From Hymenochaete sp. R1 (lineage: Eukaryota > Basidiomycota > Agaricomycetes > Hymenochaetales > Hymenochaetaceae), in the NCBI GenBank assembly GCA_019400425.1, contig JAFREE010000129.1, positions 1 through 64,000 of the forward strand: a DNA stretch of 64,000 nt, in the 5' to 3' direction. This document shows positions 38,461 to 61,928 of the stretch, piece after piece. The notes under the pieces are model-generated. The model made no database searches, was not told where the DNA came from, and saw only the letters and a list, made by a program, of their open reading frames with translations. A program made the position numbers and the translations under genes. Numbering within the stretch: the stretch's first letter is position 1; each line of letters starts with the position of its first letter.

Positions 38461-38752
38461 TGCGATGTGATCTTGCACTGTTCTATTTGGCTATGTTCAC
38501 GATCTTAACGATGTAGGAGCGCACCTTACGACAGATGCCTTCGGACAACTTCCTTCTCGCACGATCTCAAACCCTATGCATAGATCCTGGCGAGCATATC
38601 AACAAGCAATGTACTCTAGCGCAAGCTAGCCCATTTTCATGACTTTGCCCCGACTCCCTATAATTTAGAATGCCTTCTGATCTCCTTAAAGAATGCAGCT
38701 TGACGGACGAGGGAATATCTATCCTTCACCACGCACACACACGCCTCCTATC

Positions 38753-39637
38753 ATGTCTTATACAACAAAACCCAAAGTCGTCGATAGCCTAGTCGCGACA
38801 CTCGGCCCTACACCTTTCTCCGATATAGTCCTCAAGAGACTCGACACTGAACACAACCTTATCCTCACAGACGGACAGTCGAGGTTGCAGCAGCCATCCA
38901 CCTTACATTTCCTTGAGAAGGATGCGCTTAGACAGCAAGACCTCCTCAGAGGGGCGGACGGCCCACACTTCGACGCCGAAGCCGCCTACGACCAAACGCT
39001 GTTCTACATGTCTTCCGTCATCATGTTCGAGCTCGATAAGGGAGAAAGCGTGAACACCGGCAAGGGCAGTACAAGTGATACCGGCCGTGATATACTCGTG
39101 TCTCTCTGTGCTAAGGTCGAAGACAAAGTGAAGGACGTTTCGAGGGAAGCGATGGAGAAGCTTAGATCGCTTGAAGCGCAGGTGGCGATCAATAACTTGG
39201 TGCTCAACTACTGGCAAGCTATCCGAAGGACGCTGGTAAACAGTCACAAGCAACACAATGGGGAATCCGTCTCTGATTCGCGTAAATCGGTTTCGGAGCG
39301 TGGCCCTAAGGTCTCAAACGATCTGAAAATCGACATCTTGCTCCATGTGCTCATGTGCAAATCCCAGTACCATATCCAACAGCTTCATCGAAACGCAATC
39401 CTAAATGCAGTCCGGGACGGAAATCACGAGGAGCCCATGCCCTTGAATGAAAGAGACCAAGACGTACTGGCCGAGCCAAGAAACGAGAGGATTCTGGTTG
39501 AGGAGGTGCTCAAGCCTCGGATGAAGAATCGCATGGGGCGGAAGGGCCAGCTTCGGTATGAGAACGCCGTAAAGTGGGCTAACGCCTACGAGGACTATCA
39601 GTTGAGGAGGAAAACGGGGACCGATGGCTCAAGCTAA
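38753..39637 (+). CDS. cluster paralogue A, about 294 aa, divergent
   Basis: Single open frame; ATG at 38753 (MSYTTKPKVVDSLVATLG), with an alternative in-frame ATG at 38693. No introns, signal peptide or membrane segment. The central NYWQAIRRTLVNS, DILLHVLMCKSQYHIQQLHR, and the C-terminal YENAVKWANAYEDYQLRRK align in order with the 'W/aromatic - RFVxxxxHY - AKAWxxxY' blocks of the genes at 46772 and 48642, so I place it as the most divergent member of the local family. Its N-terminus lacks the LRRxTSS motif. Function unknown. Confidence 0.65.
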   Translation: MSYTTKPKVVDSLVATLGPTPFSDIVLKRLDTEHNLILTDGQSRLQQPSTLHFLEKDALRQQDLLRGADGPHFDAEAAYDQTLFYMSSVIMFELDKGESVNTGKGSTSDTGRDILVSLCAKVEDKVKDVSREAMEKLRSLEAQVAINNLVLNYWQAIRRTLVNSHKQHNGESVSDSRKSVSERGPKVSNDLKIDILLHVLMCKSQYHIQQLHRNAILNAVRDGNHEEPMPLNERDQDVLAEPRNERILVEEVLKPRMKNRMGRKGQLRYENAVKWANAYEDYQLRRKTGTDGSS

Positions 39638-40440
39638 ACTTCGCTATTTACGTGTCTCTTGTCTACCTTGCTTAGATCTGACAGGATTATTTATTTGTCT
39701 TTCTCATTGGCGGGCATTAAGAAAAGGATCAGACAGGGACTAGCACTCGACCCCGATAATCGTTAACTTCGCCACGGAATGGTGGTAGCTTCATAGGACC
39801 GGCGTAGTCGGCTTCCGGCGTCGCTGCAAAGACCGTCTTCAAGTTAGTTCCCCAGCTTACTGTTGATCAAAGGCTTACGATAGCAGCTGACCCAGAGATT
39901 CTTAAGCGCAAAGGTGGTTTGCTGATGTGTGAGTCCTGGCCAGATTCAGTTTGCTGATTATTTCGAAATGCAAATGGGTTCGGCCGATTTCTACTACTCG
40001 AGTTTTGCTCTTTCTCTCCGTTCCAAAGTGAGTCCTTTTTCACGAGCTTTATCTATTCTCTTTCTTACGTTGAAATGCAAAGATCATCGTACAATCATGA
40101 GGCGCGTGATTCATAATTACTGGTATATATGGTAAAGTGGATAGCGCGGACTTATACTATGCACGTCCTTTCCATGCCGCCAGGCCTTGGCATTCGTAAT
40201 GAGTTTGCACTTTGCTGCTGGGTGTCCAGTGATGAAATTGTGATCATCCCGCAGCTATCTCGTCACCTCACGTTCAGCAAAGCGCCTATTCTTTTGCCTG
40301 TGCATACTTCCCCTTGCAGACCTCCCAAATAGGCTCGACCTGAGTGTATGCATCTTTCCTCTTCCATCTCTTTCGAGTTTTATATTCTTGCACGCTTCTC
40401 TTCGGAAGTCCTACCGCTCCTCTCCGCCTTTTTCAACGCC
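39638..40440. other. spacer with a possible gene relic
   Basis: On the minus strand about 39756-39835, a 30-codon frame ends EADYAGPMKLPPFRGEV...GRVLVPV-stop, and a second block near 39870-39925 reads QTTFALKNLWVSCYR. They look like the last two exons of a lost gene, but no upstream exons were found. Confidence 0.25.
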
Positions 40441-41475
40441 ATGAGCACCCAATCTCGTGAGTCCAGAAAGGACAGGAAAGACTTGGAATCGCGAGGACGA
40501 CGGGGCTCGTCGAGGTTGACACCTCCAAATTTCTTTCGCAGAGCGACCAATTCTATCAACTTGCACCTTCGCGGGAAGCGGCCTCGGTCTCAGCCTCAGC
40601 CTCAGCCCCATCCTTATCCTCGATCTCAACCCCGTCCTCAGTCTCAGTCTCAGCCCGAGGAACGTGCTTCTAAGACTGAGCCAATGTCTTTTGGGCCCGT
40701 CATGACCGCTCAACCCGATCTTCTATCGCTGAATCTGACAGAGCCCATCACGGACGCACTCGAAAATGAGAGCAAGGCACTTGCGAGGGAGGAGAACCTT
40801 GAAGGCGAGTACACGTCCCTGATACAGGAGGCGTTCGTCCGGTCGACGGAGTTCACGCTCGTCCACGATCAGATCGAGGAGGCCAAATTCGCGATGGCAT
40901 TCCTGTCGTTGTACGGCGTCTCGCACGAATCGTCGTCATTGGAGGATAACAAGACCCGGATTGCCGCAACAAGGAACGGCCATATCTGGCACTCAGATTC
41001 GGACTCGGACTCGGTCCCGGAATTCGTCGCCCAAGAACCTACACCCGAGTTCCTCGAGAAGTTGATCAGTGATAAGAAATACGCAGCGTCCATTGTCGAG
41101 CAACTCTCTGCGCTCTGGAAGCGGTGCTTGAAAGAACTGACTGGGATCGACCAACTATATAAATGCGAGTCCGAAGGCGACGCCCTCATACTCCTGAAGT
41201 ATGTTCTGTTCGCGATGCATTACAACTACTGCGTCGATCTGCGAAGGGTGTCGCAGGCCGTGACATTGCGGAAGAATGCATACAGGAAGCTTCATCGCCA
41301 GACGTCTGTGTGGATGCATAGGGACAAGACTTACGAGGAGGAACGGGAGAGGGCAAGAGCGAATGTGGAGCAGGCGAAGTTCGCGATAGAGAAGCATATG
41401 TTAGTGACTGTTCCTAGGACCAGGTGGCCAACAGAGGAGCGGTGGCTGGAAGCCTTGGAAAGTTGGGGGGTCTAG
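40441..41475 (+). CDS. cluster paralogue B, 344 aa
   Basis: Intronless; ATG at 40441 (MSTQSRESRKDRKDLESRGR). A basic N-terminus with FFRRATNSINLHLRGKRPRS precedes a tandem Gln-Pro/Gln-Ser repeat tract (residues about 57-80). Core blocks follow: ITDALENESKALAREENLEG, RSTEFTLVHDQIEEAKFAMA, FLSLYGVSHES, an acidic DSDSDSD tract, QEPTPEFLEKLISDKKYAAS, IVEQLSALWKRCLKELTG, LLKYVLFAMHYNYCVDLRRV, and the end PTEERWLEALESWGV. This is the clearest full-length member on the plus strand. Predicted soluble and helical. Function unknown. Confidence 0.85.
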   Translation: MSTQSRESRKDRKDLESRGRRGSSRLTPPNFFRRATNSINLHLRGKRPRSQPQPQPHPYPRSQPRPQSQSQPEERASKTEPMSFGPVMTAQPDLLSLNLTEPITDALENESKALAREENLEGEYTSLIQEAFVRSTEFTLVHDQIEEAKFAMAFLSLYGVSHESSSLEDNKTRIAATRNGHIWHSDSDSDSVPEFVAQEPTPEFLEKLISDKKYAASIVEQLSALWKRCLKELTGIDQLYKCESEGDALILLKYVLFAMHYNYCVDLRRVSQAVTLRKNAYRKLHRQTSVWMHRDKTYEEERERARANVEQAKFAIEKHMLVTVPRTRWPTEERWLEALESWGV

Positions 41476-42020
41476 TAATCTCAAATGGTGGGATATGCTC
41501 GTCTTGGTATAGAAAGAAATGAAAAACGAAGGCGAGGGTAACATGAGCACCTCGACTGGAACCGATTTTGATAGCTTTTCAGCTTGTCGTTAATGATTCG
41601 CTGGTTCACGAATATATAATATATTTCACTCTTTCTTTAACAACAATAGAGAAATAAAACATTATCTTCAAACAACAGGGTTCCCAGTACTTATGAGACT
41701 AAACCCCAAATACGGCGAGTCCTGCCTGTACTCAGCTCGTACTAAGCACAAAATCACTACTTCAGTAAACGGGATTTCTAGATGTCATACAGCCTCATGA
41801 TCATGAATGGGAATCAAGCACGCCAAATAAACGTGCATTATAAGGAACAGTAATTCATATGAGCAAACATATAATCTATTATTTACGAGACTGAAAACGG
41901 ACAGGCACGCCTTGAAACAGCGCACTCTTCATAATAGTACTGGTCCAAAGCTCACCACATTCCGATGACTCCATAAAAGTAATCTGTGCGTCGCGGAGGC
42001 TACAGATACTTCCTCGGCGC
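41476..42020. other. spacer between convergent paralogues B and C
   Basis: AT-rich, no gene supported. Confidence 0.5.
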
Positions 42021-42935
42021 TTACTTACACGCCTCCTCCATCCATCGATCCGCCGTTTTCCAATTCTCCGTGAACCGAGTCTTCTCGACGAGAAATACCT
42101 TGATCTGCTCCATCTTCTTCCTCGCTTTTTTGCACTCGTCTACATGCGCCGCATCTTTCGCCACCCATCGTCCACGTAAGCCATGCTTCTCCAGCGCAGC
42201 CTCCCGCATTCGCCTCGCTCGAGACACCCTATGAAGGTCAATGCAATAATTGAAATGCATCGCTTTCAAGAGGATCGCTATGAATTGGAAAACACACTCC
42301 TCGGAAACTTTGGTCGGATCGTTGGATAGCATGTCCTCTGCTCGCTTCTTAGCGATGTCAAAATTGATTCCCCAGCGCTCCTCTGTTCGTCTGACGAGAG
42401 CCGACGAGTATTCCCTGTTGTCCCGCAGCTCCGCAAGAAACTCGGAAGAGGGCTCCTGGACGACGAACTCTTTGTCTTCTACACTTAGAGGCCAAGACTT
42501 CCCCGTTTCGTATTCCTTTCCCTTCCGAGAGGTAGATACCGCGCCAGTATCCGATGGTTTATAGGGCATGTTGTCGACCATTTGGTGTGCCATGGTAAAC
42601 TTGGCCTCCTGAAACTGGTCGTCGGCGAGAGTGCATTCCGTGGCCCGAATCAAGGCCTCCCATATTTGCGAGCCAGAAGGCCCTGATCCGCTGTCGAGCC
42701 CCTGTAATACCTTGTACTCGTTCTCGAGCGCGTTCCAGATATATTTAGGCATGAGTTGAGAGGTGTATTTGGCGAACTTGCAGGCGCTAGGCGGAGGGAT
42801 GCGCGCATTGGGATCGGGAGATGATTTCTTTTTTACGCTGAATAAAGTACTGGCGGTGCGCCGAAGGTTATTTAGGGTACCCTCTGATGAGCCCGCTGCA
42901 CCATGTCTGTCCTTTCCGATTTTTTGATTACTCAT
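42021..42935 (-). CDS. cluster paralogue C, 304 aa
   Basis: Intronless; ATG at 42933-42935 (MSNQKIGKDRHGAAGSSEGT). The N-terminal LNNLRRTASTLFSVKKKSS carries the family LRRxxS motif. Core: MPKYIWNALENEYKVLQGLD, IWEALIRATECTLADDQFQE, AKFTMAHQMVDNMPYKPSD, VVQEPSSEFLAELRDNREYS, QFIAILLKAMHFNYCIDLHR, VSRARRMREAALEKHGLRGR, and the C-terminal WKTADRWMEEACK. It is the closest relative of the damaged copy at 45011-45742, with which it shares both coding and upstream sequence. Function unknown. Confidence 0.85.
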   Translation of the reverse strand: MSNQKIGKDRHGAAGSSEGTLNNLRRTASTLFSVKKKSSPDPNARIPPPSACKFAKYTSQLMPKYIWNALENEYKVLQGLDSGSGPSGSQIWEALIRATECTLADDQFQEAKFTMAHQMVDNMPYKPSDTGAVSTSRKGKEYETGKSWPLSVEDKEFVVQEPSSEFLAELRDNREYSSALVRRTEERWGINFDIAKKRAEDMLSNDPTKVSEECVFQFIAILLKAMHFNYCIDLHRVSRARRMREAALEKHGLRGRWVAKDAAHVDECKKARKKMEQIKVFLVEKTRFTENWKTADRWMEEACK

Positions 42936-45010
42936 GGCGAAGGGGTCCGAGATCTGCTAGAACTGTAAGTGTGCTTGTTAATGGAGATTTGGAAGGCAAA
43001 GAGCGGGTAGCGGGGGAGGTAAGAGAAAGATACGAACCCGAGGCCCTGTCTTATTGGGATTTATACGAGACGACTGCTAGTTTGCTACGGCAAAGCAATA
43101 CCCTCCAGCTGAACTAGCGAAGAAAGGATGCAATATGAATCAGCTAGTCCAGCTCTGGAATCATCAGTCCCTTATCGAGAGTCCATTGCAGCTGCTAAGA
43201 TCTCGTAAAACATGCGAATTCAGCTGCTTTGATATTACTGCTAGCAGGTGACTTTGCGAAGAAAATATGGTCATATGGGTCAATAAGCTCTCAGAGACGG
43301 TCGAATGTCGTTCGTGGATGCCGCGTCTGTCGATGCCGGTTTCGATGGAATCCCAACTAGCTAAAAGACATTGACATTCTGGACCAAGTATTCTTTCTTC
43401 CTGTTAATTAGTAGCGTAAATCATAATTCAAGGTGACTTTGCAGTCTATGCTAACGCGCCACTACAGCGACGACGAGCAAAATACATACAAATAATATCG
43501 TCCTAGCGGATACCCTGTTGCACTCTGCATCCACAATCCTCTTGAATCGCGGTAATTGTGAATTGATGCGAGTGGATCGCATTAGGGGTCCCGGATCTGG
43601 CCGCATTATGTTTTGGCTCAGACATCTTCAGACGGTCCGGGCAGACTACATCCGGCGTATGCGTTAGATTGGAGGTAGCAAGCAGGCAAAGGAGAGAGTG
43701 GTCATCGTGATAACAATGAGTTCATGCATGTGGGAATTGTTGCACCTACGTCTGAAAAAAGTGACGGGGACCGTGTTGCTCTACTCTGCAATGAGTGTGA
43801 CTTTGGCACCACGTAGAACCCAAGCTTAGTGCTTGAGTTCGGCATTGAGGAAGAAAGCGACGGTGCCAAAATAACAGACTTTTTTTGGCGTCGGCCGTGC
43901 AAGGCGAAGGCTTGCGAGGATCCTACCTGCAGCTGTTGGAGACCTCCCATAGACTTCAAGACTTGATGGCTCCCATTTTGTCCCAAACGATGCCACATTA
44001 TGCCCTTTCTTCCTGATCGACTTTGACAGTCTCAATCGCCGTCCGCGGATTCTTCTGCTACGCCGATCGAGAGATGCCCGCTCGAATTGTGGTGTAGGTA
44101 CTGGTGAATCCCGGCAAATTCGCCAGCGGTGGCCACAAGGTCGATACGAATACGGGAGATGGGTTTGTACGACGTGTAGAAGATACGTTCTTGTACAACT
44201 TCAAGAGGACCATGCAAGGGGTGCAATAATATGGTCCGTGTTACCGTTATGGTGCAGGCTTCAGTTGACTGGAGCACTGGGAAGGGACCTCTTGGAGCGG
44301 TAGAGGTACGTGGCTGGTCATCTGTAAATTTGGCGCGAAGAACACGTATGTAGGGATGCTGGTGTAGCCGCTAAGCCAGGCTTCGAGAGGGAGAGGTCGT
44401 GCTTTTCTACAAGGTCAGACCAGTATGAATCCTCAAGGGCGGTCTGTAGATTTTCATCCGAAAAAAAGTCCCCTTGGAACTAATAAGGATGGCTGGATGG
44501 GCGTATGTTTTCAACAGACTTTGTCGGCGACGTCGTAGATTTTGTTAAGAACGTCGAGCTCGTTCGAATCGTTGTCGTCGCTGCACATGCTCGGATCCGG
44601 AAACGCGGCTATGTCGGATTGTCGCGCTCAAATACATCTCTAACCGGAATAAATCCGGCAAGATCGATCCCGGAATTCCGAGTCCGCTTAGTATACCCTG
44701 CTCAGTGCCAGTGCCCCAGTAATCCGTGTGCAGGACATCACACAATTAACACTACAATAGTTAGCCAGGTCGTCAGACAAATGATCGTTGTAATAAAAGC
44801 TTTCTATATGTGCTAGTATGACATTTAATGTTCATAGCATTGAGGGGAGGGGAAGGGTAAGGCCGTAAGGGCACTTCGAAAGTTTGAAACAACTTCAAAC
44901 AATGATGTTTACTACATGCACTGCTACTAGTAGCGGTCTAATCTGAATACTCGCTATACTCCAGAAAAATATTCCTGGAGTTGCGACAATTAGAGACACT
45001 CATTCTACGT
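42936..45010. other. 2-kb spacer with duplicated promoter and decayed frames
   Basis: The first 250 bp is similar to the region upstream of paralogue D (see findings). At 43702-44600 short minus-strand frames (for example KPISRIRIDLVATAGEFAGI and ELDVLNKIYDVADKVC) are separated by stops and do not join into a convincing gene. Possible decayed gene; no identity assigned. Confidence 0.35.
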
Positions 45011-45908
45011 TTACTTACACGCTTCCTCCATCCAACTATCCGCTGTATCCCACACGTCCTTCATTGTGGTCCTCTCCTTGACAAGTACCTTAATTTGCTC
45101 CATAGCCTTCTTCGCCTTTTTGCAAGCATCCACATGAGATATATCTTTCGCCGCCCTTTCTCCGCGTACACCATGCTTCTCGAGCGCAGTCTTGCGCATT
45201 CGCCTCGCCTGGGTTGCGTTGCGGAATTCAAAGCTATAGTTGTAGTACATTGCTTCCAAGAGGATGGTTAGAAATCGAACAACTTCGGCATCGGAATTCT
45301 TCTCTTGAGCATCGGACAACTTGTTAGCGATACTGAGATGATGCCCCCAATACCTCTCTAGCTGTTTAACAAGAGTCGATGTATAGTCGTTGTCGTTGCG
45401 TAGCGTCTTGGAGAATTCGGGAGAGGGCCCCCGGACGACAAAGTCCTTGGGGATCACAGCAAGAGGCCAGCCCGGCCAGGGGTCCTCCACTGTGTCTTCT
45501 CTGGCCTTTCGAGATGTAGAGTCTGAGTCCGTATTCGATGTCAATGTCTCACGTGGGGAGCTGTTAATAGTATGGAACACCAAAGCAAACTTGGCCTCCT
45601 GAAACTGGTTGTGGGCGAGAGTGCATTCGGTCGCTCGAATGTAAGCCTCCCATATTTGCGAACGATAAGGTTCAGACTCATTATTGAGCTCCTGTAATGC
45701 CTTATACTCATTCTCTAGCGCTTCCCATATATATTTGGGCATTGGCGCAAGGTTGCGCCTGGGGTCGGAGTGAGGAACGAGGGCATGAGGGTCGGGATGT
45801 GTTTTCTTTTGTCAAGTGGAAGCATTAGAACGGCGTTCAATGGTATTTAAGAATGAGATCCCTGACCTTGCTGCATCCATTTCCGCGTCTACGACTGCCA
45901 GTACTCAT
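45011..45908 (-). pseudogene. cluster paralogue D, N-terminus broken
   Basis: From ATG 45742 the frame encodes 243 residues very similar to paralogue C: MPKYIWEALENEYKALQELN, IWEAYIRATECTLAHNQFQE, VVRGPSPEFSKTLRNDNDYT, RFLTILLEAMYYNYSFEFRN, TAQARRMRKTALEKHGVRG-type run, and WDTADSWMEEACK. Upstream, the segment matching C's LNNLRRTASTLFSVKKK is still legible (ISFLNTIERRSNAST) but is closed by a TGA at about 45812, and the natural-looking ATG at 45908 (MSTGSRRRGNG) is in another frame. Either the protein now starts at 45742 without its basic N-terminus, or the copy is dead. Confidence 0.75.
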
Positions 45909-46771
45909 AGTGACGGAAGGTGGTGGGAGTATGAGTTCTTTAGAGTGAGCGTGAGTGTGGTTGGAGAGTGAGAGGAGAAAAGAAAAAATGTGTACTTGAG
46001 ACTCCTTCTTAATGGGACCTTCACGATGCGAATGACAGTATGCACAAGCAAAGTCATATTCTCTAGCTGAACTAAAGGTGAAGAAAGGATGCAATATGGG
46101 TTAGCCAGTTAAACCATAGAACCGTCTGAATCACTTATCGAGGCACCATTGTGATTGCCCAACTTGAAGGCTTCATAATAAAGTGCGCAGATTCACTTAC
46201 TTTGACGATATTAAACTGCAGTAAAGGACTTTGCAGCGGGGTCTGAGGGTACTACGAGTTGATGACCGTGTTCGGCAAATTTCTTGATTTCATACCTGTG
46301 ACGAAGGGGAAAGACCTTGAAAAGATCTGAAAACGAAGAAAACTAAGGCCAATCATCAGTAAAGTCGTAAAATAATGGCACTTCTAAAGCTTGAATTGCT
46401 CAGAACCTGACTGTTACACTTAACTTTGCGCGCAAGAACACTGGTTGAGTCCTCTAGCTAGCGATAAACTTGAAGGGAAAGGAAATTCAAACGCAAGAAA
46501 CAGAAGGTGGGGATCGTACGGGATGACAGAACACCGACTCGGAGTTGCTACTAATATACGAGCAACGTTGACTTGTAGGTTAGATCGATTCACGCATAGA
46601 TTGGCATGAGAAAAGATGGATTACTTATCCAGATAAGGTACAAACCGTATCGAGGATGCCAACGCAAGGTCGCATATATTTACCCAGCAGTTAGAAAGAG
46701 TCAGATATCAGTGGCTACTTACAAAGCCGGCACAAGAACACCATCCACTCAAAGACTCGCATGAGCGTTCA
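45909..46771. other. spacer, duplicated in part
   Basis: The segment about 46063-46240 resembles 43096-43260. No gene supported in the rest. Confidence 0.5.
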
Positions 46772-47686
46772 CTACAAAGCCCGTCCTGCGTTTGGAGGTC
46801 CAGATGCATTGGATGCAGACTGTCTAGACACCGCAACAGTCCTTTCGTACTCGTCTTTCCATGCCTTCGCGACGTCCAACTGGCCCTCTGGAATCTTCAA
46901 GTGCGTTTTCAGCACCTTCTCGATTCCCACCAAGTCCATTTTCAACTTCTGTATTTCCTCGGCAATCGCATCCGGCTCCCTGCGCGGCTGTTCGGCCGCA
47001 GAAGCGAAATCCCTTATACTAGTAGTGGTCGAGATTGGTGGGGCTCGGGTCGTTTCCAACTCATATTTCTGGTCCTCCAACATTCTCACGCTGCAGCTCA
47101 GATAGTAATGCACAGCGAGCACAACAAATCGCGTCAACCGATCCTTCTCCCCAGACTGGTAGATCTCGTTGCTACCATTCGCGACGTCCCAGTTACTTTT
47201 CCAGTAGGCATCGAGACGACCAACAATAGCTCTGGCATCCTTCGTATTACTGCGGAGCTCGGCGATTAGATCGGGTGAGGGGTGCTGAAGGGTGAGGGCT
47301 GTCGCGTTGAAGAGGGCACTTGATACTGAATTAGCTGACATTACGTTCTGCCCGATGCCACGACTGTAGATCGCGCTGTCCCAGGTACGGGTAGGTTTAA
47401 TTCCATACAGCATTAAAAACTGCATCGCAAAGACGGCTTCGATATGCAGAAATGGAGGGGAAAGATCCCATGCTGGCGGGCTACGGCCTGCACCACAACG
47501 ATGGGCACGGTATATGAAGGAATCTTTTTTATTCTTCGACTTGAGGGCGACCGGTTCGCAGCGGATGGCATCTTTGAGGAGTCTGGGGAGAGGATTGCGA
47601 GGGTCTAGGCTCGAAGTGATTCTGCGGAGGAGACGGGGGAAACGGCCCGACGAAGAGCGAGAACGATGATTTGTGTCGGAGGACAT
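46772..47686 (-). CDS. cluster paralogue E, 304 aa
   Basis: Intronless; ATG at 47684-47686 (MSSDTNHRSRSSSGRFPRLL). The N-terminal RFPRLLRRITSSLDPRNPLP has the clearest form of the LRRxTSS motif. Core: RLLKDAIRCEPVALKSKNKK, SFIYRAHRCGAGRSPPAWDL, HIEAVFAMQFLMLYGIKPTR, LQHPSPDLIAELRSNTKDAR, AIVGRLDAYWKSNWDVANGS, RFVVLAVHYYLSCSVRMLED, and KIPEGQLDVAKAWKDEYERT. It pairs with paralogue F (same YRAHR-GAGR and AKAWxxxY blocks). No catalytic motif or membrane helix. Function unknown. Confidence 0.85.
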   Translation of the reverse strand: MSSDTNHRSRSSSGRFPRLLRRITSSLDPRNPLPRLLKDAIRCEPVALKSKNKKDSFIYRAHRCGAGRSPPAWDLSPPFLHIEAVFAMQFLMLYGIKPTRTWDSAIYSRGIGQNVMSANSVSSALFNATALTLQHPSPDLIAELRSNTKDARAIVGRLDAYWKSNWDVANGSNEIYQSGEKDRLTRFVVLAVHYYLSCSVRMLEDQKYELETTRAPPISTTTSIRDFASAAEQPRREPDAIAEEIQKLKMDLVGIEKVLKTHLKIPEGQLDVAKAWKDEYERTVAVSRQSASNASGPPNAGRAL

Positions 47687-48641
47687 GGTTTGTGGAGGAA
47701 CTTTAGAGTATCGGATATTGAGGGCCAGAGTCGGAAAGATCCTAGGGTATTTATGCAGATGTAAGTGAGAAGGTGATATGAGACTTCCCCTCTCTTTACC
47801 CGTGCAAAGAGCATGGCAGATGAATAATATTGTTCTCTGCGTCGCGAGCCAACAAGGTTCTATAAGGTGAAATGAGTTTGCAATGCCAACTTCATGAAGA
47901 TAAGATCATCCATAAGTCGAATGCTCGCAGATATTTAGTAACCTTACCTCACAAGCAAGTATGTGGGTATGCGAACACAGGGTCCTAAGTGTGCAAATGA
48001 GCAAACAGATTGTCAGTTCGAGAGTTTGCGCACCTTTGTCTGAGCCGAACTTTGGTTTGCACTTCACGTTCGCGACAAGCAGATCGAGGTCTGCCTGCAA
48101 AGTCAAGCAAGAGATCGGCCGATAGCCCGTTCATTCGCTAGTCCGAGCCGATATGTTCTACAAAAGTTTTGTGCCGTATTGGTCACTTTGCTGCTTTCTG
48201 TAGTAAACAGAAATGTACGGTAAGAGTTATTGCGGTAGAATTTTGAGAGTGTGAAGACGAGAATCGCTCGTGCAGAAACATACGGCAAGGAAGAAGCTGT
48301 ATGTGATGGAGTTGGATGGTCCGCGAGATACGTTTGCTATTACCCGGGTTAAAGTCGAGGGCAATATGCCAAGCCATTGGGTTAGCCTGCCGTTCTCAGC
48401 TTTGCACACGAAAGCACCGGACGAGACTTGTGGCAATGGAAAAAAGGTAATAACAATCGCAATTTATAGGAGACGCAAAGAAAAGAGTACTATCAGATAA
48501 GATGGACGTTCTAGTAGCAAGAAGCCCGTCAGTTAGATAGCTTTGGTGGTGTATAATCGCAACGCCAGCACAGAAATGCGAGCCATTGATACCAGTAGGC
48601 AACTAACCCTTAACTGTTCGAACACGAAACGGGGGTCCTTC
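47687..48641. other. spacer between paralogues E and F
   Basis: Short frames only, no recognisable gene or repeat. Confidence 0.45.
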
Positions 48642-49619
48642 CTACACCCGGCTCGTGCCTGCACGTCCACTGGCAGATCCACCGGTAGCAGGAGGCGAGC
48701 TCCGAGAGATAGTCGTCTGAAACACCTCGTTCCATGCCTTTGCCACCTCGAGCTGTTCCTGTGAAACATCCAGAAACTTCAGTAGCGTCTTTTCGACCAC
48801 AACCTGATACTCCTGCAGTTTCTGTCTCTTCGACGCGCGTTCCTCCTTCCTCAACCCATTCACATCATCGTGACCTTTTTTGAGCGCCTTTGTGAACTCG
48901 TCAGACACGAAATCCTCTATCGTCAACTCTGCCTCATGAGACCTGTCCTCCTCAAGCTCTTTCAAGTCCCTGATGATATTATAGTAATCTGCGAATACCA
49001 CGAGACGCAAAAGACTGCTTTCCTCCTTAGGATCGATTGGGTTCATACGTTTGACACTGTGAAACCAGTTGTCTCGCCAAAATTCATCGATGGTCTTGAC
49101 GATAGAGATGGCGTCCTTGCTGTTACAATCGAGCTTTATTTCTTCCAGCAGGGTGGGTGTAGGAGGATGAAGCGTGGAGGGTGTCGCATTGAAAATGGAG
49201 GACAGAGGCGAGACTCCTTTGGCGCTTGAAGCTGCATCGCTACCGTGGGCAGAAGAGCTGCTGCTCTCGTCCTGGCGAACGGACTTGATCCCGTAGATCG
49301 TGAGAAGCTGCATAGCCAGAACGACCTCGGCGTATAATTTCGAAGTGGGAAGCTTCGACAGGTACACCTGACGGCCTGCTCCCCATCGGTGAGCCTTGTA
49401 GATGACCGAATTATTGTCGTTGCTGTATCGGAGAGCGAGGCGTTCTTTGTCAATAGCTTCTTGAATGAGTTTGGGGGGTTTAGAGAGGCCACTCTCGCCT
49501 GTGCGAGAGGAGGACGTCTTGAGGGAAAAGGAGGAGGTGAGTCTACGGAGGAGACTTGGAACTCGAGAGCTTCTTGTGTTCTGAGACTGTGCAGAAGGGT
49601 TTTCGTCGTTGGAGGACAT
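48642..49619 (-). CDS. cluster paralogue F, 325 aa
   Basis: Intronless; ATG at 49617-49619 (MSSNDENPSAQSQNTRSSRV). An upstream in-frame GTG is not a likely start. N-terminal VPSLLRRLTSSFSLKTSSSR is the family motif. Core: PPKLIQEAIDKERLALRYSN, SVIYKAHRWGAGRQVYLSKL, YAEVVLAMQLLTIYGIKSVR, LHPPTPTLLEEIKLDCNSKD, IVKTIDEFWRDNWFHSVKRM, RLVVFADYYNIIRDLKELEE, then a Lys/Glu-rich coiled coil, and DVSQEQLEVAKAWNEVFQTT. Function unknown. Confidence 0.85.
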   Translation of the reverse strand: MSSNDENPSAQSQNTRSSRVPSLLRRLTSSFSLKTSSSRTGESGLSKPPKLIQEAIDKERLALRYSNDNNSVIYKAHRWGAGRQVYLSKLPTSKLYAEVVLAMQLLTIYGIKSVRQDESSSSSAHGSDAASSAKGVSPLSSIFNATPSTLHPPTPTLLEEIKLDCNSKDAISIVKTIDEFWRDNWFHSVKRMNPIDPKEESSLLRLVVFADYYNIIRDLKELEEDRSHEAELTIEDFVSDEFTKALKKGHDDVNGLRKEERASKRQKLQEYQVVVEKTLLKFLDVSQEQLEVAKAWNEVFQTTISRSSPPATGGSASGRAGTSRV

Positions 49620-50914
49620 CGTGTATATAGACACAAAGAGCAGGAAGTCGTCTGTGAGTTAGGTATGTGAAAGCACATACTTTTAAAGCCAAGGCGCGAA
49701 CTGTAAGTTGTGCAAAGTGCTTGAGCGACGGGAAATCATATTTGCGACTCCTAAAGTGATGTTAGATGAGATAACTTCTATCGCCAAAGGCACTGAAAAT
49801 GAGTTTCTTACTCTTTTTCTCGATTCTAAAAGATAGGGTGAGCCGGGCCATAATTTCTGTAAAGCTCGTGAATGTTCGGCCTGAATATGGGTAGTGTACT
49901 AGCTCTGCGCCTCTTCTCGAGAGATGCAGCGGCAGGAGTAGCAAAGTCGCTTGTGATGAAATTGGCCCGTAGCCGAGGGAAAGCCGAAAAGCCGATAAGA
50001 GCAGTGGGACTTCGCTCGCTCGCTTATGTAAGTTTTGACCAGGAAGAGATTTCCGGCGACCGTCGTTTGGGGGGCAGGCCGGCCGTTCCGTTCCTCTCCC
50101 CTCCTCCACTAGTACTTCACGCGTTGAAAAAAAAACCAGCATTGGATCTCTACTCGAGGATATTTTCGATGATAGCACTCCTATATCACGATCATCAATT
50201 CAGCCGTATACAATTGCACTACAAAATGGCCGTTTATAAAGAACCAGTGAACTATACTACTGGTATTCGTTAAAAGAGACTCTACAACAGCCAGCTGTCG
50301 ACAAATGGCCTTTAAAGTAACAAAAAAAGAGAAACCTGGAAATAGTCCGAACCAATAATAGGCCGGTGGCGAGCGTTACTCTGAGCGCTCTATAACTTTG
50401 CAAAGGCCGGTTATTTTATTTTACTCTCCGAGCGGAAGGCCTTGGAAGCAGCGGCGAAAAACAGCAAAGGGGGAGACAACGCGCTCGATGTAAGCTCATT
50501 TTGCATAAGATGGGAAAACGTCAGGTTGCTGATAACAAATGGACAAAATTCAGGATACAGAGAAATAATATCTTCCATATGCTAGCGTTGAAGTCGGCCT
50601 CTGAGAACACATAACGAGCTAAGAAGCCGAAAAGCTGAATACAAGTAGACGTTCATAAACCACGGGCAAGCACGAGTACACATACGCATGTATACAAGCC
50701 AGCTAGCAAGGTTAGCCCGTTTGGTTTTGAAGATCGAATGCCCAGTCTGAGCTGAGACTCTCTGCGGGTTCAAGCAAAATCGACCGACGAGGTCTCTGAA
50801 CAACCCTCTCGTAGTCGTCCCTTCAAATCGTCGCCATTTCCAGCCGTTCCTATGGAGTACTCAAGCGATGCAGCAGCACCACGCACCCTATTGATCTTCT
50901 CCAAGTATCTTGAG
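49620..50914. other. spacer, 1.3 kb
   Basis: A 133-codon frame at 49872-50273 (+) shows no motif and is not accepted. No repeat recognised. Confidence 0.4.
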
Positions 50915-51637
50915 CTATGCGTGTCTTCCGAGTTCTTGCACAGGCTTCCAACTTGAACTGCCGCTATTTCTTCGCATATGGATTCTGGCGTGATTCGTCG
51001 TCTTCCGTACGGCATATTTGGGCCATCCCGCTCCGAACATCCGCTGTATCCATAGGTCCAAGCCCGCGTTGTAACAGTACCCAAAGACGACGAAGCGCTT
51101 GAGTCGGACTACCTCGCTGGGTATGGGAGCTTGGGAAGCGAAAGGCTCTGAGTCGAAGAGAGAGCGCAGCCCCGTGTTGGAAGCCCGGCTCAAGACTGGA
51201 TCAGTTGACCCCTTGCCGCCGCTATTGTCGCGAGAAGGCTCAACCTCGCTCTCGCTCTTGCATTCTATGTGACGAGCAGGCTTCACACGCCACCATATGC
51301 TATGAGGAAGCGCATCGCAAAGATGAACTGTGCGTACAACTCCTGGGTTAAGAGTTCCTAGCAAGGGATCCGTGGGCCTGGAAACCATCGGCGAGTTATG
51401 TAGATGAACGAACCTTTGCTCACCGGAGGGGGGGGGGGGGACGTCTCGCTCTTTTTCGAGGGCGCCCTTGAGGAGCTTGGGGATGCGAGTGTCGGACTTG
51501 TGGGAATGATACTTAGTGGAAATGGTGGAAGAGAGGTTGTGGGGGAGACTTGGATCTCGGGAATGGCTCGTGCTCTGCGAATGCCCTAGAGAGATTACTA
51601 GATTAGTCGCTAGAGCGTATAAGCGTATAGTACGCAT
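50915..51637 (-). pseudogene. cluster paralogue G, frameshifted relic
   Basis: The N-terminal region SRDPSLPHNLSSTIS aligns with SRVPSLLRRLTSSFS of paralogue F (the Arg pair is lost), and IPKLLKGALEKERD aligns with its first core helix. The next block, ELYAQFIFAMRFLIAYG, is found in a different frame and hits a stop near 51289, while VKPARH appears in the frame of the long open reading frame: a frameshift at about 51285-51300 within the conserved 'YGxKPxR' motif. A 13-G run at 51428-51440 adds another likely slip site. A late block RFVVFGYCYNAGLDLW still matches the RFVVLAVHYY region. Paralogues have no introns, so splicing is an unlikely explanation. Confidence 0.78.
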
Positions 51638-52993
51638 AGGGAAACAAAAAGCTGAGGGGAAACCCGGAAGTCAGGTATGTGGGTGTGCATTTTGAATACC
51701 CAGGAGTTGAAGTTTAACGAGCCTATAGCTGAGTAAGCCGTGCGAAGTGTTACAACCTTTCTTAGGCAAAACGGCGTTTTCGTTCGTCCTGAAATCGAGC
51801 TGCCCGTACGATTGGCCAATTGAGATTTAAAAGACAATTCGGGTTGAAGGTTGAGCCGTTATGGACAAGTCTGCAAATTACATGTAGTACTAGTATGAGT
51901 AGTATGAGGGAATTGGTTAGTAGGACAAGCCTGGACACAGACCCAACACCGGTCTGTCATCGTTGTAGACAGCACAATTGCCTTCGTGGTCTAAACCGTG
52001 AAGAATCCGAAGAACTGGGTGCACCGAAATTGGGACAGAGGCGAAAGTTGTGAGTAGAAGATAAGCAAGTCGGGGAACGCTCAGCTTGTGCTCCTGCCGT
52101 CGAGAAATCTGTTGAATCAGGTCAAAGGGGGCTCGTATACAAGCGAGAGCACTCTCCCATATCCAAGGTGGCTGATATTTCAACGATCGTTTGATAAATA
52201 AAAGATGGTGAGATACATATATCATGATCATCATGGACTATAGTATTCTTGTGATCATTCGGGCCGTCCGATGCATGTAAAACTAATGACGAGGGGCGTG
52301 TAGTATGTCAATAAAAGACCGAGGACACAAGGTTCAAAACTGAAGTAATGTCGACTGAATTGTCCAGGAACGAGAAGGGAAAGCGAAGGGCGAGGACATC
52401 GGAGGTGAGGCGCGAAAGGATGCTTTTGTGCGTCGCGGTATGGTATCGATGAGATGAGAACAATCCGGCCTAGCAACGGAACGCAACGCACGCGTGGTGA
52501 TGTTTCTAAAAGTACTACTACTCGTAATACAATTGAGAATACAATAACAAAAGTTTGTATTACTAATTCCAAAAAAGGAAGGTCATTATCATTATTAATG
52601 TTGTCCGTTTCATCCCATCCATCCCATCCCAGTTGTAGACTCTGCCCCTCCCCATCTTTCTACCTTCGTCTTCCACCACCGTCGTCGTCGTCGTCAACGT
52701 CGTCGGCAGGCATCCGCGACAAACTACATTCGGACACGAACAGGATCCGGCGAGTCCGATCTCTCCTCTCGCCCTTTCTAACGTGATTTGTTTCCTGTCG
52801 CCAACGTTACTTGGTATTCTTGCTCACACACGCACACTTTTTAAACCGCCCATTACAGCATCCACGGACCCGCCTCGGGTTTCTTTCTCTTTGACTATCA
52901 CGTTTAACGACTAGTATCTCAACTGGCAAGACAACCGAGGACCTTTGCTCTCGTCCTCCACGTCCGCGTCTACAACAGCAAGCTTATTTCCAC
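51638..52993. promoter_or_regulatory. long upstream region of STE11
   Basis: 1.36 kb without a supported gene. A GTC trinucleotide run (about 52680-52698) and a pyrimidine-rich stretch just before the ATG are typical of a fungal promoter and 5' UTR. Confidence 0.4.
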
Positions 52994-55900
52994 ATGACGG
53001 CTTTGGCACCCACCGCTTTGTCTAACACTCTCGGCACTTCTGCTGCGGGGCCTTCCCAGCCGCCCTCACAACAGTCTTCTCCTGCAAGCCCAACAGCCAA
53101 CTTCTCCGCGTCCCAGCAAGCTGTTCTGGCAAAGACCGCTCATCTGAGAGGTCACAGCAACTCCGCATCGCGTCCAGAGACTCCCGTATCAAATGGAAAC
53201 GGAATCGTCAGCGGGCCGTCCCTCGAGCCTCCATCAGGCACGTCCTTTCCGGATTTTCTGTCTTCTTGGGGAGATGTCCACGTTGCCAAATGGCTCGCCA
53301 ATATGGACCCTCATGGCAAGTGTGCCGCGCACGCCACCGCGTTCCGGGAGGCCGACATGCGAGGCAACCTTCTCCTCGAGCTTGACCAACCGACCCTCAA
53401 AGAAATCGGAGTGACGAGCATCGGTGACCGTATTCGTATCCTAAACGCAGTCAAAGCGCTGCGGATACGGTGTAGTAATCGGCATGCGCAGAATGGAGCT
53501 AACTATGGTCACGGTCAGACGCAAAATGGCAGTGTCAGTAGCGTCGCGAGCAGTAATGGGAGCGCCGGTGGTCTGAATTCTGCTCTCGCGCACCCAAGCC
53601 CAACGCTCAAAGTCACCAATGCCGAGTCATCCGATTTCCCAAAGACACATCAGCGCAATAGATCAAGACCAGCGCCTTTACGGTTAACTAACGCAACTCA
53701 AGCTGATCTGCCCCGCCTCGTTAGAGATGCCGGGCAAGCTCCTGATTCAGCACGGTCTACCGCTCCTATGAGACCGCTGCCCTTGCCAAATACACCCACA
53801 TCTCAGTCCCATTCATCATCTGGCTCTGGCTCCGGTCCGAGTACTGGTGTGCGAACCCATTTACCGCCTCTACCCCCACCACCCAGCGTCAAGCCACCAC
53901 TTCCCCCGGGTGCACCGAGAGCTCAACCGAACCGTATCAATGCACTCCAAGCTTCTAGTGGAGGATCCCGACGCACACCAACTCAGGAAACACCTCCGCC
54001 CCTTCACGCTCTCCCTCCTGTCCCCACCAGCTCCGCTCAGAATCAAAATGTATCTGTCCAAACTCCCACGCAAACGCAGAACCCCGCCCTCCTCACTCCT
54101 GGTGGTTCTGGATCCTCCCAAGGTGGGTGGAAGGGAGAATATGGACTTCCTTCGGGTCCCCGCCCTACCGGGCGGGCTACCTCTCCTCTCCCAGGTATTG
54201 GCCGCCGTTCTCCTTCCGGACAACATACCAAAGCTCCAAGCTTCTCTGGTTCCGCTACCGCCTCCAACGCACCAAAAGGTGCCCCGAGGCCAAGTACCAG
54301 CGGCGGACATCCATACGCAACTGCAAACGCTTCTTCATCCCTCCAGACGCCTCAAAACAATGCCGCTAATGCCGCGCTTTCTCCCATCGCTGAATCCTTC
54401 CTCAATCAAAGCCCTATGCATACACCCCTTCCTCCTCCGACCGGCTCCTCTTCCTCGTCATCCCTCGTGAGTCAAAATCCGAACGCATCTGCATATCACG
54501 TCGGCCGGGGTCCCTTCCGCCCGCAGACGCCGTCTTCAAGCGTTGCTGCAGCAAATGCCCCGAGTTTGGACGATCTCAAACGCAAGCTCGTCAAGTTTGT
54601 TTTCCCGGAAGGCGAAACCAGTGCGACAATCAACGTTGCCGAATGCGCGAATGGCGTTGAGATTTTGGAACGAGTGTTGCGAAAGTTTGGTAAACTTGGG
54701 AATATGCCTGGTGGAATACTTGGGGATACTGAATTGGATGAAGGGGGACTTTGCATCGATGGTTGGGCAGTATATCTGGTTTTCGGGAAGGACGATGGGC
54801 CTGGTATGTATCTCTTTTTCTTGAAATGGATACGTGCGGTCTTTCGGAGTGCTGAGACGTGTTCCGGTTTTAGCGAAACCCTTGCGTGAAGCAGAGTTGT
54901 TGTCTTTATGCTCGGCTGGTCCAGATCACCGTGTCCGCGAACATGGTTTAACAGTACGACGTACTGGGAAACCCCGTCGCGCCAAAGTTCTTCAACAGAT
55001 ATTTGGGGAGTCGCCTCCGTCAGCTTCCTCTCCGTCAGGTCTGAGTGTTGTATCACCTCATAGTCCAGTCCCTGGGATTCAGGCCGATGAATCGAGCGTT
55101 GCGTTCCCTCGAACATTTACGCCGACTCAGGATCGTGATGCTCGAAACAACAAAAGAGCAAGTTCGATTAGCGTTCTCAGTGGACTTGGTGTGCATGATC
55201 CTGAGCGTATCCTCGGTGACTCGCAGGCCCCCGTCTCAAACACTAATATCTCACCATCCACCGCGACAGCGAATGGAGGGAAAAGTCCCAGCTCTTCTTC
55301 CTTCGCAGGCAAAATTCGCAACTTCCTCGGTGCAAGACCGCCAAGCGAACTCATCGCGACACACCTCCCTGCGTACTTCCCATACACACAACCTAAGGTT
55401 CTACGTAGGACTGTGCGTCAGTCAATGCGGTTCAGCTCTAGCAATCCCGGAGGACTCGGTCGGAGAGACAGTATCGCTTCAGTGCTTGCTCAGCAGGGCA
55501 TTAACACAAGGCGAGCAAGTCGAATGAGCACGACAACACGTTCGAGTGCGAGCGCGGGGACAGACCATAGGCCTTCGAGTTTAGCAAGCCTCCCGCCACC
55601 ACCTGTACCTGACAAGAACCGCGAATCGACGGTCGATATGGCGCCGCCGCGGATGAGCGTGTCTGCGGAGGACGGACACTCCATAGACCTACAAAGTGAG
55701 GACTCGCACGAAAGTGTAAAGACAGAGACGTCCTCGGTGAAGTCGACTCCCCATCTTCTCCCACCTGTCAATTTCCCCGGAGAGTCATTCGCGGACTCGT
55801 TCCACAGTGTCACAGACGATGCGGGTGGCGCTCATCAGGGAGGAACGCCTGCGATTTCGCGCACGTCGTCGCTCGCGTCGATGTCTATGGCCCGCAGGCT

Positions 55901-57388
55901 GAGTTACATGTCCGAGCTGCGAGCGCGGCGGGATTTATCGGATACGGCGAGTATGTTGACGGTGGATGAAATCACACAGGAGGTAGAGTTGAGTCGGCGG
56001 AAGAGTATGGCGGCTAGCGTACGGTCCGGTGAGAGCGCATATGCTCCTGGTGGTGTTGGGGCGCCGTCGGTGGCAGAGGAAAGCGTAGAGGAGGAAGAAC
56101 CGGCGACGGACACGTTGGTTGACGTTGATGATGACGAGAACTTTGAGATCATTGGAGAGGAGGAGGGGGAAGAGGAAGATGAGATGGGCTCGGATGAAGA
56201 AGACACGCTTGAGGATGAGGAGGAAGTTGCTGAGGAAGACGACGGTGCTCCCGTCAAATCCATAGGTAAGATACGCATGCTTCTATTCTCCAACTTAATC
56301 TCAACGAATACTTTTCAGGCAAGCGCGGCATGAAATGGATCCGAGGTGCTCTTATCGGCGCCGGGTCCTTCGGGAGCGTTTATCTTGGCATGGACGCCAT
56401 GAATGGTCTTCTCATGGCCGTCAAGCAAGTTGAGCTCCCTTCAGGCTCAGGCCCGAACGAACAACGCAAGAAAGCCATGCTCGACGCTCTCGAGCGCGAA
56501 ATCGACCTCTTGCGCGAACTCCAGCACGAGAACATCGTGCAGTACCTCGACTCGAGCTCAGACGAGAAGCATCTCAATATTTTCCTGGAGTACGTGCCCG
56601 GTGGGAGCGTGACGGCATTGCTGAGAAACTATGGCGCGTTCGAGGAAGCGCTATGCAGGCATTTCGTGCGCCAGATCTTGCAGGGTTTGGTGTATTTGCA
56701 TAGCCGGGATATCATCCATCGCGACATCAAAGGCGCGAATATCCTTGTTGACAACAAGGGTGGGATCAAGATTTCGGATTTCGGGATTTCGAAGAAAGTG
56801 GAAGAGAGTATGTGATTTTTCAGCCTTCTATTTTTTTTCTGATCAAGGAAGCTAATTTACTGTACTTACAGCATTCCTTGGCGGAAGTGCTCGTGCCCAT
56901 CGACCATCGCTGCAAGGATCCGTCTACTGGATGGCTCCCGAGGTCGTCAAGCAAGTCGCGCACACGCGGAAGGCCGATATCTGGAGCGTCGGGTGTCTCG
57001 TTGTCGAGATGCTCACCGGCAACCACCCTTACCCAACCCTCAACCAAATGCAAGCCATCTTCAAGGTCCGTTTCCGCTCTCTGCCTTCTTTCCTTTTCAT
57101 CCTTGCTAATCACCGTTTTCTTTACGTTTCCTTCACTTTGTTCGTGCTATACAGATCGGCGGTTCCGCAAAACCTGCCGTGCCCGCCGACATCTCACCCG
57201 AAGCGGAAGACTTCCTCCAAAAGACGTTCGAGATCAAACATGAGGCGCGCCCTGACGCAGACGAGCTCCTGCAACACCCATGGATTGTCAACGGGCCCAA
57301 CTCTTCTAATGGGAATGGAGGCGGGACGGGGAATGCGAGCGGCAAGACGACGGGCACAAAGTCGAAGGCAGCGAAGGCAGCATCGTGA
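52994..57388 (+). CDS. STE11: MAPKKK of the Ste11/Byr2 type, SAM + RA-like + kinase
   Basis: Mating/filamentation MAP kinase kinase kinase. Start ATG 52994. A SAM domain lies at about residues 75-155 ([20 protein letters not shown] ... [32 protein letters not shown]). A long Pro/Ser/Thr-rich region includes [19 protein letters not shown] Ras-association-like segment begins near residue 520 ([35 protein letters not shown]). A second disordered and acidic stretch follows, then the C-terminal kinase: [23 protein letters not shown] (VAIK Lys), [76 protein letters not shown]. All catalytic residues are present. Introns lie near 54802-54875, 56265-56320, 56812-56872 and 57066-57156. It ends [10 protein letters not shown]. 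Confidence 0.92.
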
Positions 57389-57912
57389 TTGTGATCATGA
57401 TTGTGTCTATGAGACGGGCTGAGCCATCGGCAATACTTCGGTTTTTTCGTTCTTTTCTTTTGCGTTCGCGTTAAATATTCTTCACTACCTTGATTTCATC
57501 ACTTCGCTTTCTCAAGTTATTAGCTTTCACACCCCTTTCTTCATTCTTACTTGATTTTCTCTTTCCTAATCGCTTCATCTCAGTCTAAGCACGAGAAAGA
57601 GATTCTAGGATGTTGTTTTGTGTTATACGATATACGATATGCCACCGTGGATAATATGTAGAAATGTGTGCGGGCTGAAACTTGCTTTGCAAAGAAATTA
57701 TGAAGAATTAGATTACATGTACAATGGGGAGTGTGTTGGATTGTCCATCTGCATGAATGGTCGAAAGGCACTATGTATGTGTTCATGTGCGCTACCTGAT
57801 CGCCCACATTTAAAGGAAAAGTCCGAACAAAAGTGTGAAGACGCCATCTTTTGATAAACCCCGCCTCGCTCCACGCCATTCATCAAAATTGGTTGCAACT
57901 ATCCACCGCGTC
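57389..57912. other. intergenic between convergent kinases
   Basis: AT-rich 3' flanks; no gene supported. Confidence 0.5.
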
Positions 57913-59389
57913 TCACCGCATGCTTTGATCTGAAAGATGTTGAATCTGTGACTGAACTTGATGCTGAACAAGACTGCGCACGACGCAATCAAAGGCAACC
58001 AGTGCCTGAGCCGCCGAGGGTCGTTTCTCAAACGACGGGTCGAGCATGGGTCTGGTGAATGTAACGAGTTGGGGGATGTCGTATCCGTTGAGCTGCGATG
58101 TTCACATCAATTAGTCTTACTCAATATCCATGCAATCTGGCGATTGAGTATTCGCGTAAAGGAGGGGGAGGGACGTCAGATGAAACGAACCTTGCAAGCT
58201 CGTAGGATGACTACTGCGAGGGCCCATACGTCTACTTTGAACGGATCTGCCTCTAGACCTTGTTCAATTTCAGGTGGGTCTTCCGTGCCGTGCACACCCT
58301 GTATGCGCGGCTCCTCGTAGTTCGCAGTACCCGACGACGACTCGGACGATATCAATTTTAATGTAAACGAGGTTTCACCATTAGGGATAGTGTTGCGCTG
58401 TGGACGAGGAACGGGCGGGTATATACGGCTCGTTTCGAAATCTATGAAGGCATAGTGGCCATGAAAGTCTGTGAGGATGTTGCGCAGGGAGATATCGAGG
58501 TGTACTATCCGGTGCTCGTGCATGAAGGCGAGACCCTGTGTCATTAAATCGATCACAAAGTCGGGATCCATATGGCCCAATACTGCGGTCAGGATGTGTT
58601 TCAAGGGTTGGAGGGCTAGCGTGAGAGAGTGCGCACCTCGATGCATTGCCGGATGGCTCGAAGGAGGTTTACGAGCCCACATGGAACACAAGGATCAATC
58701 AACTGCGAAGACCATTCCTCCTGCACGATGAGAGCTAAGTCATCCTCCGGAACGGAGATCAAATCCAGTATAGCTAAGGTTCAAATGCTTCGATATCAAT
58801 TACCTCCCATCAAGCTATCACATGCAGGTTGACTCACGGATGGTATGGTTTCTTGGGTCGTCACGTAGGGGAGGGGTAGAAAGTAATCGAACGACCTCAT
58901 ACTGGCGACTCCGCAAACAAGCCGCTTTGACAACTACGCGCTTCCCATCTACAATGCGTAGCCCTCGAAAGAGGGTGTCCGGCTATAGATCGGAAGAACG
59001 GCGTGTTCAAAGTCTGACGCGTCAGTTGGCTGATCCAGTTTTTAAAAACTAGCAGTCAATGAATGACGTACCAGGCCAGCGTCCCGGCACAATGCGTTGT
59101 CATTAGCCCGACAAGCTTTTGCGTAGGCTTCCTTCTCGCAGACATTCAGGCACGTATTTCTGTCTTCGTCGCGGAAGGCTCGTTCATAGTATTTGCGGAC
59201 GTCGCAAGCGGTGTCGAGCTGGAATCCATGGCGCCCTAGTACGCTCCGGTAACGTTCCCAGACTGGTGCTATGCGAATGTTGACTTCGTCTTCGTCAGAT
59301 GATGAAGCCGAGGACGACGAAGACGCTGAAGACCACGATGAGGAACAAGACCCCGAGGATGATGAAGCGTGATGGATACGAGGGTTCAT
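57913..59389 (-). CDS. diverged protein kinase, fungal-specific type
   Basis: Start ATG at 59387-59389 (MNPRIHHASSSSGSCSSSWS), then a Ser tract and VWERYRSVLGRHGFQLDTAC. The kinase-like part begins PDTLFRGLRIVDGKRVVVKA (VVVKA carries the probable ATP Lys; no glycine loop), then DDPRNHTI, ILDLISVPEDDLALIVQEEW, LMTQGLAFMHEHRIVHLDIS (HLDIS, catalytic Asp kept), RNILTD, YAFIDFETSRIYPP (DFE in place of DFG), VDVWALAVVILRACK, and the end LNGYDIPQLVTFTRPMLDPS FEKRPSA (stop 57913-57915). The layout matches the diverged kinase-like proteins that are expanded in mushrooms (FunK1-like or related). Several introns. No membrane segment. Confidence 0.78.
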
Positions 59390-61806: not shown

Positions 61807-61928
61807 TAGTGTTTTCATTGTCTTACATTGAGTTGAAAATTCTACTGTACAGAGCACAATGTTGTCCAAGTATCATGGTATATCATTAAATCGATCTCCC
61901 ACAATGTACCAATTATCATAGCAAATGC

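Follow-up and report, generated by a model that had tools for sequence, protein, structure and literature searches.

A family of diverged paralogues, most of them intronless, around a STE11-type kinase gene in Hymenochaete sp. R1

Family members on contig C34 and elsewhere

The window analysed here is the first 64,000 nucleotides of a contig of Hymenochaete sp. R1 (C34:1-64000, the contig having 70,564 bases in total), and searches were extended to the whole of this one genome (27.8 Mb in 336 contigs). The initial annotation placed at least seven paralogues, A to G, in the window. B, C, D, E and F are homologous and keep the coordinates first given to them, and G is a decayed copy, while A is set apart as a possible very distant member. 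The locus had also been undercounted, as H, I and K lie further along the same contig and J, M and N on others. The features are as follows, with positions in the window unless a contig is named.

A: 38753..39637, plus strand; single open frame of 294 aa, possible very distant member, uncounted
B: 40441..41475, plus strand; intronless member of 344 aa, matched by C at E 1.8e-27 in the whole-genome search
C: 42021..42935, minus strand; intronless member of 304 aa, AlphaFold model mdc422e896d2b
PAK relic: 43861..44578, minus strand; decayed remnant, lying in the spacer between C and D, of a PAK-type (STE20-like) kinase gene; not a family member
D: 45011..45742, minus strand; paralogue of C, with a 243-aa frame starting at an internal Met
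D, 5' part: 45743..45908, minus strand; upstream ATG at 45908 with a stop after 23 codons, or a possible intron
E: 46772..47686, minus strand; intronless member of 304 aa, best match F
F: 48642..49619, minus strand; intronless member of 325 aa, nearest relative E
G: 50915..51670, minus strand; F-like copy, decayed and with changes of frame; its alignment lacks the Trp-helix block
STE11: 52895..57419, plus strand; STE11-type MAPKKK gene with SAM, Byr2-type Ras-binding and kinase domains, not a member
H: contig positions 64827-65756, past the window; open frame, intact copy beyond the STE11-type gene
K: C34 ~68551-69121, past the window; decayed copy found with I as query
I: contig positions 69716-70489, past the window; open frame, intact copy beyond the STE11-type gene
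J: contig C171; clear intact copy off C34
M: contig C179; open frame of 330 aa, candidate member
N: contig C7; stop-riddled stretch, decayed piece found with J as query

Homology among the clear members is seen in pairwise, profile and genome searches. Nine of the ten pairs among B-F score above all 200 shuffles, the exception being C-F (p 0.07), and profiles built without the member to be found recover F from BCDE at 93 bits (shuffle maximum 9.7) and E from BCDFHI at 118 bits (shuffle maximum 7.5). In whole-genome searches, C recovers D at E 4.8e-77 as well as B, and E recovers F (1.2e-37), B (4.6e-7), C (0.009), H (0.088) and D (0.11). The five-member profile (B-F), run over six frames of C34, identified two extra open frames outside the window, H at E 2.1e-13 and I at E 0.0041, the latter rising to 27 bits with H added to the profile (0 of 2000 shuffles as high). 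Searching the genome with I gave J at E 9.6e-17 in addition to K, and J as query gave N at E 0.021 and M at E 0.055. M recovers J reciprocally at E 0.066 and reaches 12.8 bits against an eight-row profile, a score attained by 0 of 3000 shuffles; since its alignment is limited to the C-terminal third, M is graded as a candidate, weaker and more distant than the others.

In the alignment of B, C, D, E, F, H, I and J, a first core helix, EAxFAM..LYG, a Trp helix, an AxHYN helix and a C-terminal AKxW follow one another in order, and seven columns are invariant, including the initiator Met and two Trp. This ordered set is shared by B-F with H, I and J, but is not established at that level in A, nor in M. 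The family comprises these eight clear members, the candidate M and the decayed copies G, K and N, with A uncounted; this count is a lower bound, and the six-frame genome searches score the best candidates only.

None of the six local pairwise scores of A exceeds all 200 shuffles, and its profile scores are reached by 226 (BCDEFHI), 303 (HI), 882 (I) and 323 (EFHI) of 2000 shuffles. Against the eight-row profile with J, 8 of 3000 shuffles score as high (2630 of the 3000 being reported by the program), and against the nine-row profile with M, 250 of 5000 do so (4491 reported). Semi-global alignment is favourable with E, J and I (0, 3 and 4 of 300 shuffles as high) and unfavourable with B, C, H, F and D (19, 22, 98, 202 and 236 of 300). 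When the 64 ORFs with 200 aa or more are ranked, A comes 11th with the eight-row profile and 13th with the nine-row profile, two unrelated ORFs outranking it with the latter. The alignment of A first made by eye is collinear with the profile. With statistics that shift with profile composition, A may be a very distant family member.

As far as can be told from the sequence alone, B, C, E, F, H, I and J are each a single open frame from ATG to stop. The earlier description of seven single-exon genes applies to B, C, E and F, but the frame of D is interrupted in its 5' part and that of G changes. Since the copies descend from a common ancestor, the lack of introns counts as a single inherited character and not as seven. 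In G, one core block can be aligned only in a different reading frame that contains a stop. G scores low, at 12.5 bits (E 0.005) with one profile and 5.8 bits (E 1.1) with another, although 0 of 2000 shuffles reach it. The 5' end of D is possibly damaged, or possibly carries one 61-nt intron with weak sites: a phase-0 stretch of this length has GT...AG ends and CTAAT and would restore the frame, its acceptor AAAAG being weak. The initial annotation counted two copies as damaged; G is decayed, and D is either damaged or possibly split by an intron. A block common to C and D lies 195 nt before the ATG of C and 183 nt before the ATG at 45908, and this like distance makes 45908 the likely ancestral start of D. 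The block occupies window positions 43119-43165 and 46080-46126, and none of the other members was found to have its core word upstream. That the neighbouring genes are intron-rich, as initially stated, would fit the broken-up ORFs of STE11, CDC45 and nucleoporins.

Sequence relatives and predicted fold

No convincing relative of the family was found in Pfam, NCBIfam, PHROGs, the sequences of the PDB or a protein database containing Hymenochaetales. In the latter, C as query had no match at E <= 10 out of 1601 candidates, and a seven-member alignment none at E <= 1 out of 7694. None of the proteins scanned (the seven listed ORFs, with H, I, J and M scanned in Pfam) reached a curated Pfam or NCBIfam cut-off, including those for HET, NACHT or other incompatibility domains, and the first reading of the locus as holding no known domain is upheld at the sequence level. 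The neighbouring COA8 ORF, used as a control query, found 12 proteins in the same database, and six of these, 40-50% identical to it, belong to named Hymenochaetaceae. The best match is Phellopilus nigrolimitatus (45% over 77% of the query), other top matches (40-50%) being Phellinidium pouzarii, three Sanghuangporus species and Coniferiporia weirii; the order was confirmed as Hymenochaetales for four species among the matches, and the next named matches are Cryptococcus at 23%. The control thus shows that the database does contain Hymenochaetales. The search is word-based and needs shared 5-residue words for a match, and with COA8 reaching only 50%, family orthologues at 25-30% would escape it. 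Likewise, most paralogues are less than 40% identical, so that orthologues equally diverged could escape word-based searches, which limits the orphan claim. As far as could be searched, the family appears restricted to Hymenochaete sp. R1 or close kin, and no description of it was found in the literature searched by titles and abstract openings.

AlphaFold predicts a confident all-helical domain for I (8 rows; pLDDT 82.3, pTM 0.83), and the model of C (7 rows) has pLDDT 67.9 and pTM 0.65, with residues 10-54 and 123-156 below pLDDT 50. When VIA-align was used to re-rank Foldseek's best chains (375 and 980 chains aligned, the best 50 entries being considered, which is also the scope for a HeLo-like fold), no convincing match to the predicted fold in the PDB was found among the matches listed. 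These include TAS2R14, the sensor domain of chemoreceptor McpZ, designed maquettes, bestrophin and BAR domains, which have long packed helices in common with the family model, as generic long-helix bundles of the PDB do. In addition, an LLRRxTSS-like block is found near the N-terminus of five members, B, C, E, F and J (52, 30, 1, 3 and 52 of 5000 shuffles as high), whereas the counts for H, I and A (719, 2941 and 1347) are not significant; the blocks were picked after viewing the alignment, and significance was computed for these eight proteins.

Turnover and coding constraint

A nine-row tree places B beside the C+D pair (100/99), joins F to E (87/89) and has a third group of I, J and M (87/87, drawn open). 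The closest kin are physical neighbours in the two best-resolved groups (B-C-D and E-F), as expected from tandem duplication. C and D, initially called very close, share 54% amino-acid identity, and their similarity extends into the upstream region. Birth-and-death turnover, as first proposed, is supported by the three decayed copies G, K and N, by neighbours being closest kin and by this upstream similarity. Between C and D, divergence at codon positions 1, 2 and 3 is 29, 24 and 44% (position 3 versus position 2, Fisher p 4.9e-6), and their average dN/dS is 0.32 (NG86) or 0.47 (YN00). The pair is under coding constraint; the average dN/dS reflects constraint and not diversifying selection, and the C/D comparison gives no sign of positive selection. 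In other pairs, synonymous sites are near or past saturation.

Fast-diverging orphan families need not be conflict genes. The paralogues could form an ordinary lineage-specific helical family under moderate constraint, duplicated locally and serving a developmental or stress role, with no function in recognition or conflict. This explanation is about as probable as the reading preferred below: it agrees with the purifying average of C/D, with Pfam revealing no immune-type domain and with promoter words, none of which is common to the copies beyond the level of random stretches, C/D excepted, while the three decayed copies and the dispersed ones suggest ongoing turnover.

STE11 surroundings and possible roles

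The STE11 gene sits between G and H, inside family territory, with members on both sides. A divergent kinase-like ORF lies just downstream of it (window 58179-58694, minus strand). The PAK relic is 72-73% identical in DNA, over two blocks, to an intact relative at C124:146.4-149.2 kb, with protein identities of 49% and 62.5% and in-frame stops. The intact gene has a CRIB/PBD and a kinase domain, and no PH domain was found in its three scanned ORFs. For Tremellomycetes, a cluster of STE11 and STE20 has been put forward as the ancestral state (PMC6730849), and the PAK relic may thus mark an old linkage. As in the STE11/STE20-bearing mating-type loci of Tremellales and Trichosporonales treated in that source, STE11 lies near a PAK sequence here, but no STE3 or homeodomain gene was found on C34. 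STE3 matches occur only on C293, where the genes lie at 208.9-212.3 kb with a CRIB/PBD-bearing gene ~17 kb away (region to 229.3 kb), and Homeobox_KN matches only on C201 and C68, C201 carrying a divergent homeodomain pair with a Peptidase_M3 gene nearby. Both arrangements resemble the MATB/PAK and MATA/MIP1 layouts described for Trichaptum, also of the Hymenochaetales (PMC8970355). Also on C201, the homeodomain pair has a Ty3-type gag ORF ~2 kb away (L035:2485-3369). C34 has five frames resembling CaaX pheromone precursors, including two nested within a single ORF, versus 3, 2, 1, 5 and 0 in five shuffles; none falls within 38-52.9 kb, and one, at 61919, lies between STE11 and H.

Given this setting, it could be speculated that the proteins are pheromone/MAPK modulators, adaptors acting on Ste11 or Ste20 signalling. 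The positions of STE11 and of the PAK relic, the cluster proposed as ancestral and the RRxS/T-like N-terminal block in several members would suit such a role, which is nevertheless unlikely: adjacency by itself tells little, the STE3 and PBD genes and the homeodomain pair with Peptidase_M3 are all off C34, the pheromone-response core ACAAAGG is found upstream of E only, and J, M and N on other contigs indicate that the STE11 neighbourhood is not required. Less likely still is descent from a domesticated mobile or viral gene, in which a single capture of an intronless, helical gene resembling those for coat proteins or nucleoproteins would have been followed by amplification. The intronless frames, the all-helical fold and the copies on several contigs recall gag-derived or viral nucleoprotein-derived families, but no gag, capsid, nucleoprotein or other viral model was matched in Pfam or PHROGs, no relative of J or E was found in viral contigs, no transposase or integrase was found when 27 of the 40 window ORFs with 150 aa or more were scanned, and GC3 in the family (0.52-0.66, A and M included) lies inside the range of five neighbouring exons (0.46-0.67).

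The reading preferred here, to which we assign a probability of roughly 35%, is that the proteins serve as binding modules in a process of intracellular recognition or conflict. The average C/D dN/dS, well below 1, counts against this reading, and the step first taken from turnover to self/non-self recognition or defence is conjectural. The proteins would be soluble and probably cytosolic, with an essentially all-helical domain of ~200-240 residues into which several members insert a loop of varying length, and most would also carry a disordered, basic, Ser-rich N-terminus, which in five includes the LLRRxTSS-like block. Tandem duplication around STE11 would make copies, of which some disperse and some decay. 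The conserved core may act as a protein-binding platform and the N-terminal block as a phosphorylation or docking site, while the variable loop and surface may give each copy its partner specificity, so that the members together could form a rapidly turning-over repertoire for recognition or conflict inside the cell. Fungal allorecognition (het) families likewise show clustered paralogues, decayed copies and strong divergence, but the present family differs from het and NLR systems in that no Pfam domain, HET and NACHT included, exceeds its cut-off. The more specific proposal of an undescribed basidiomycete repertoire for allorecognition or intracellular immunity, built on a new helical-bundle family undergoing birth and death around STE11, is a long shot.

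At present, this is a well-bounded orphan family with testable predictions and not a demonstrated system. Unnamed in the libraries searched, and with a confident all-helical model that has no convincing match in the PDB, it is a fair structural target. The mechanisms of basidiomycete somatic incompatibility have been called completely unknown (PMC8229728), and if strains showed balancing selection or presence/absence variation at these genes, the family would become a candidate for this process.
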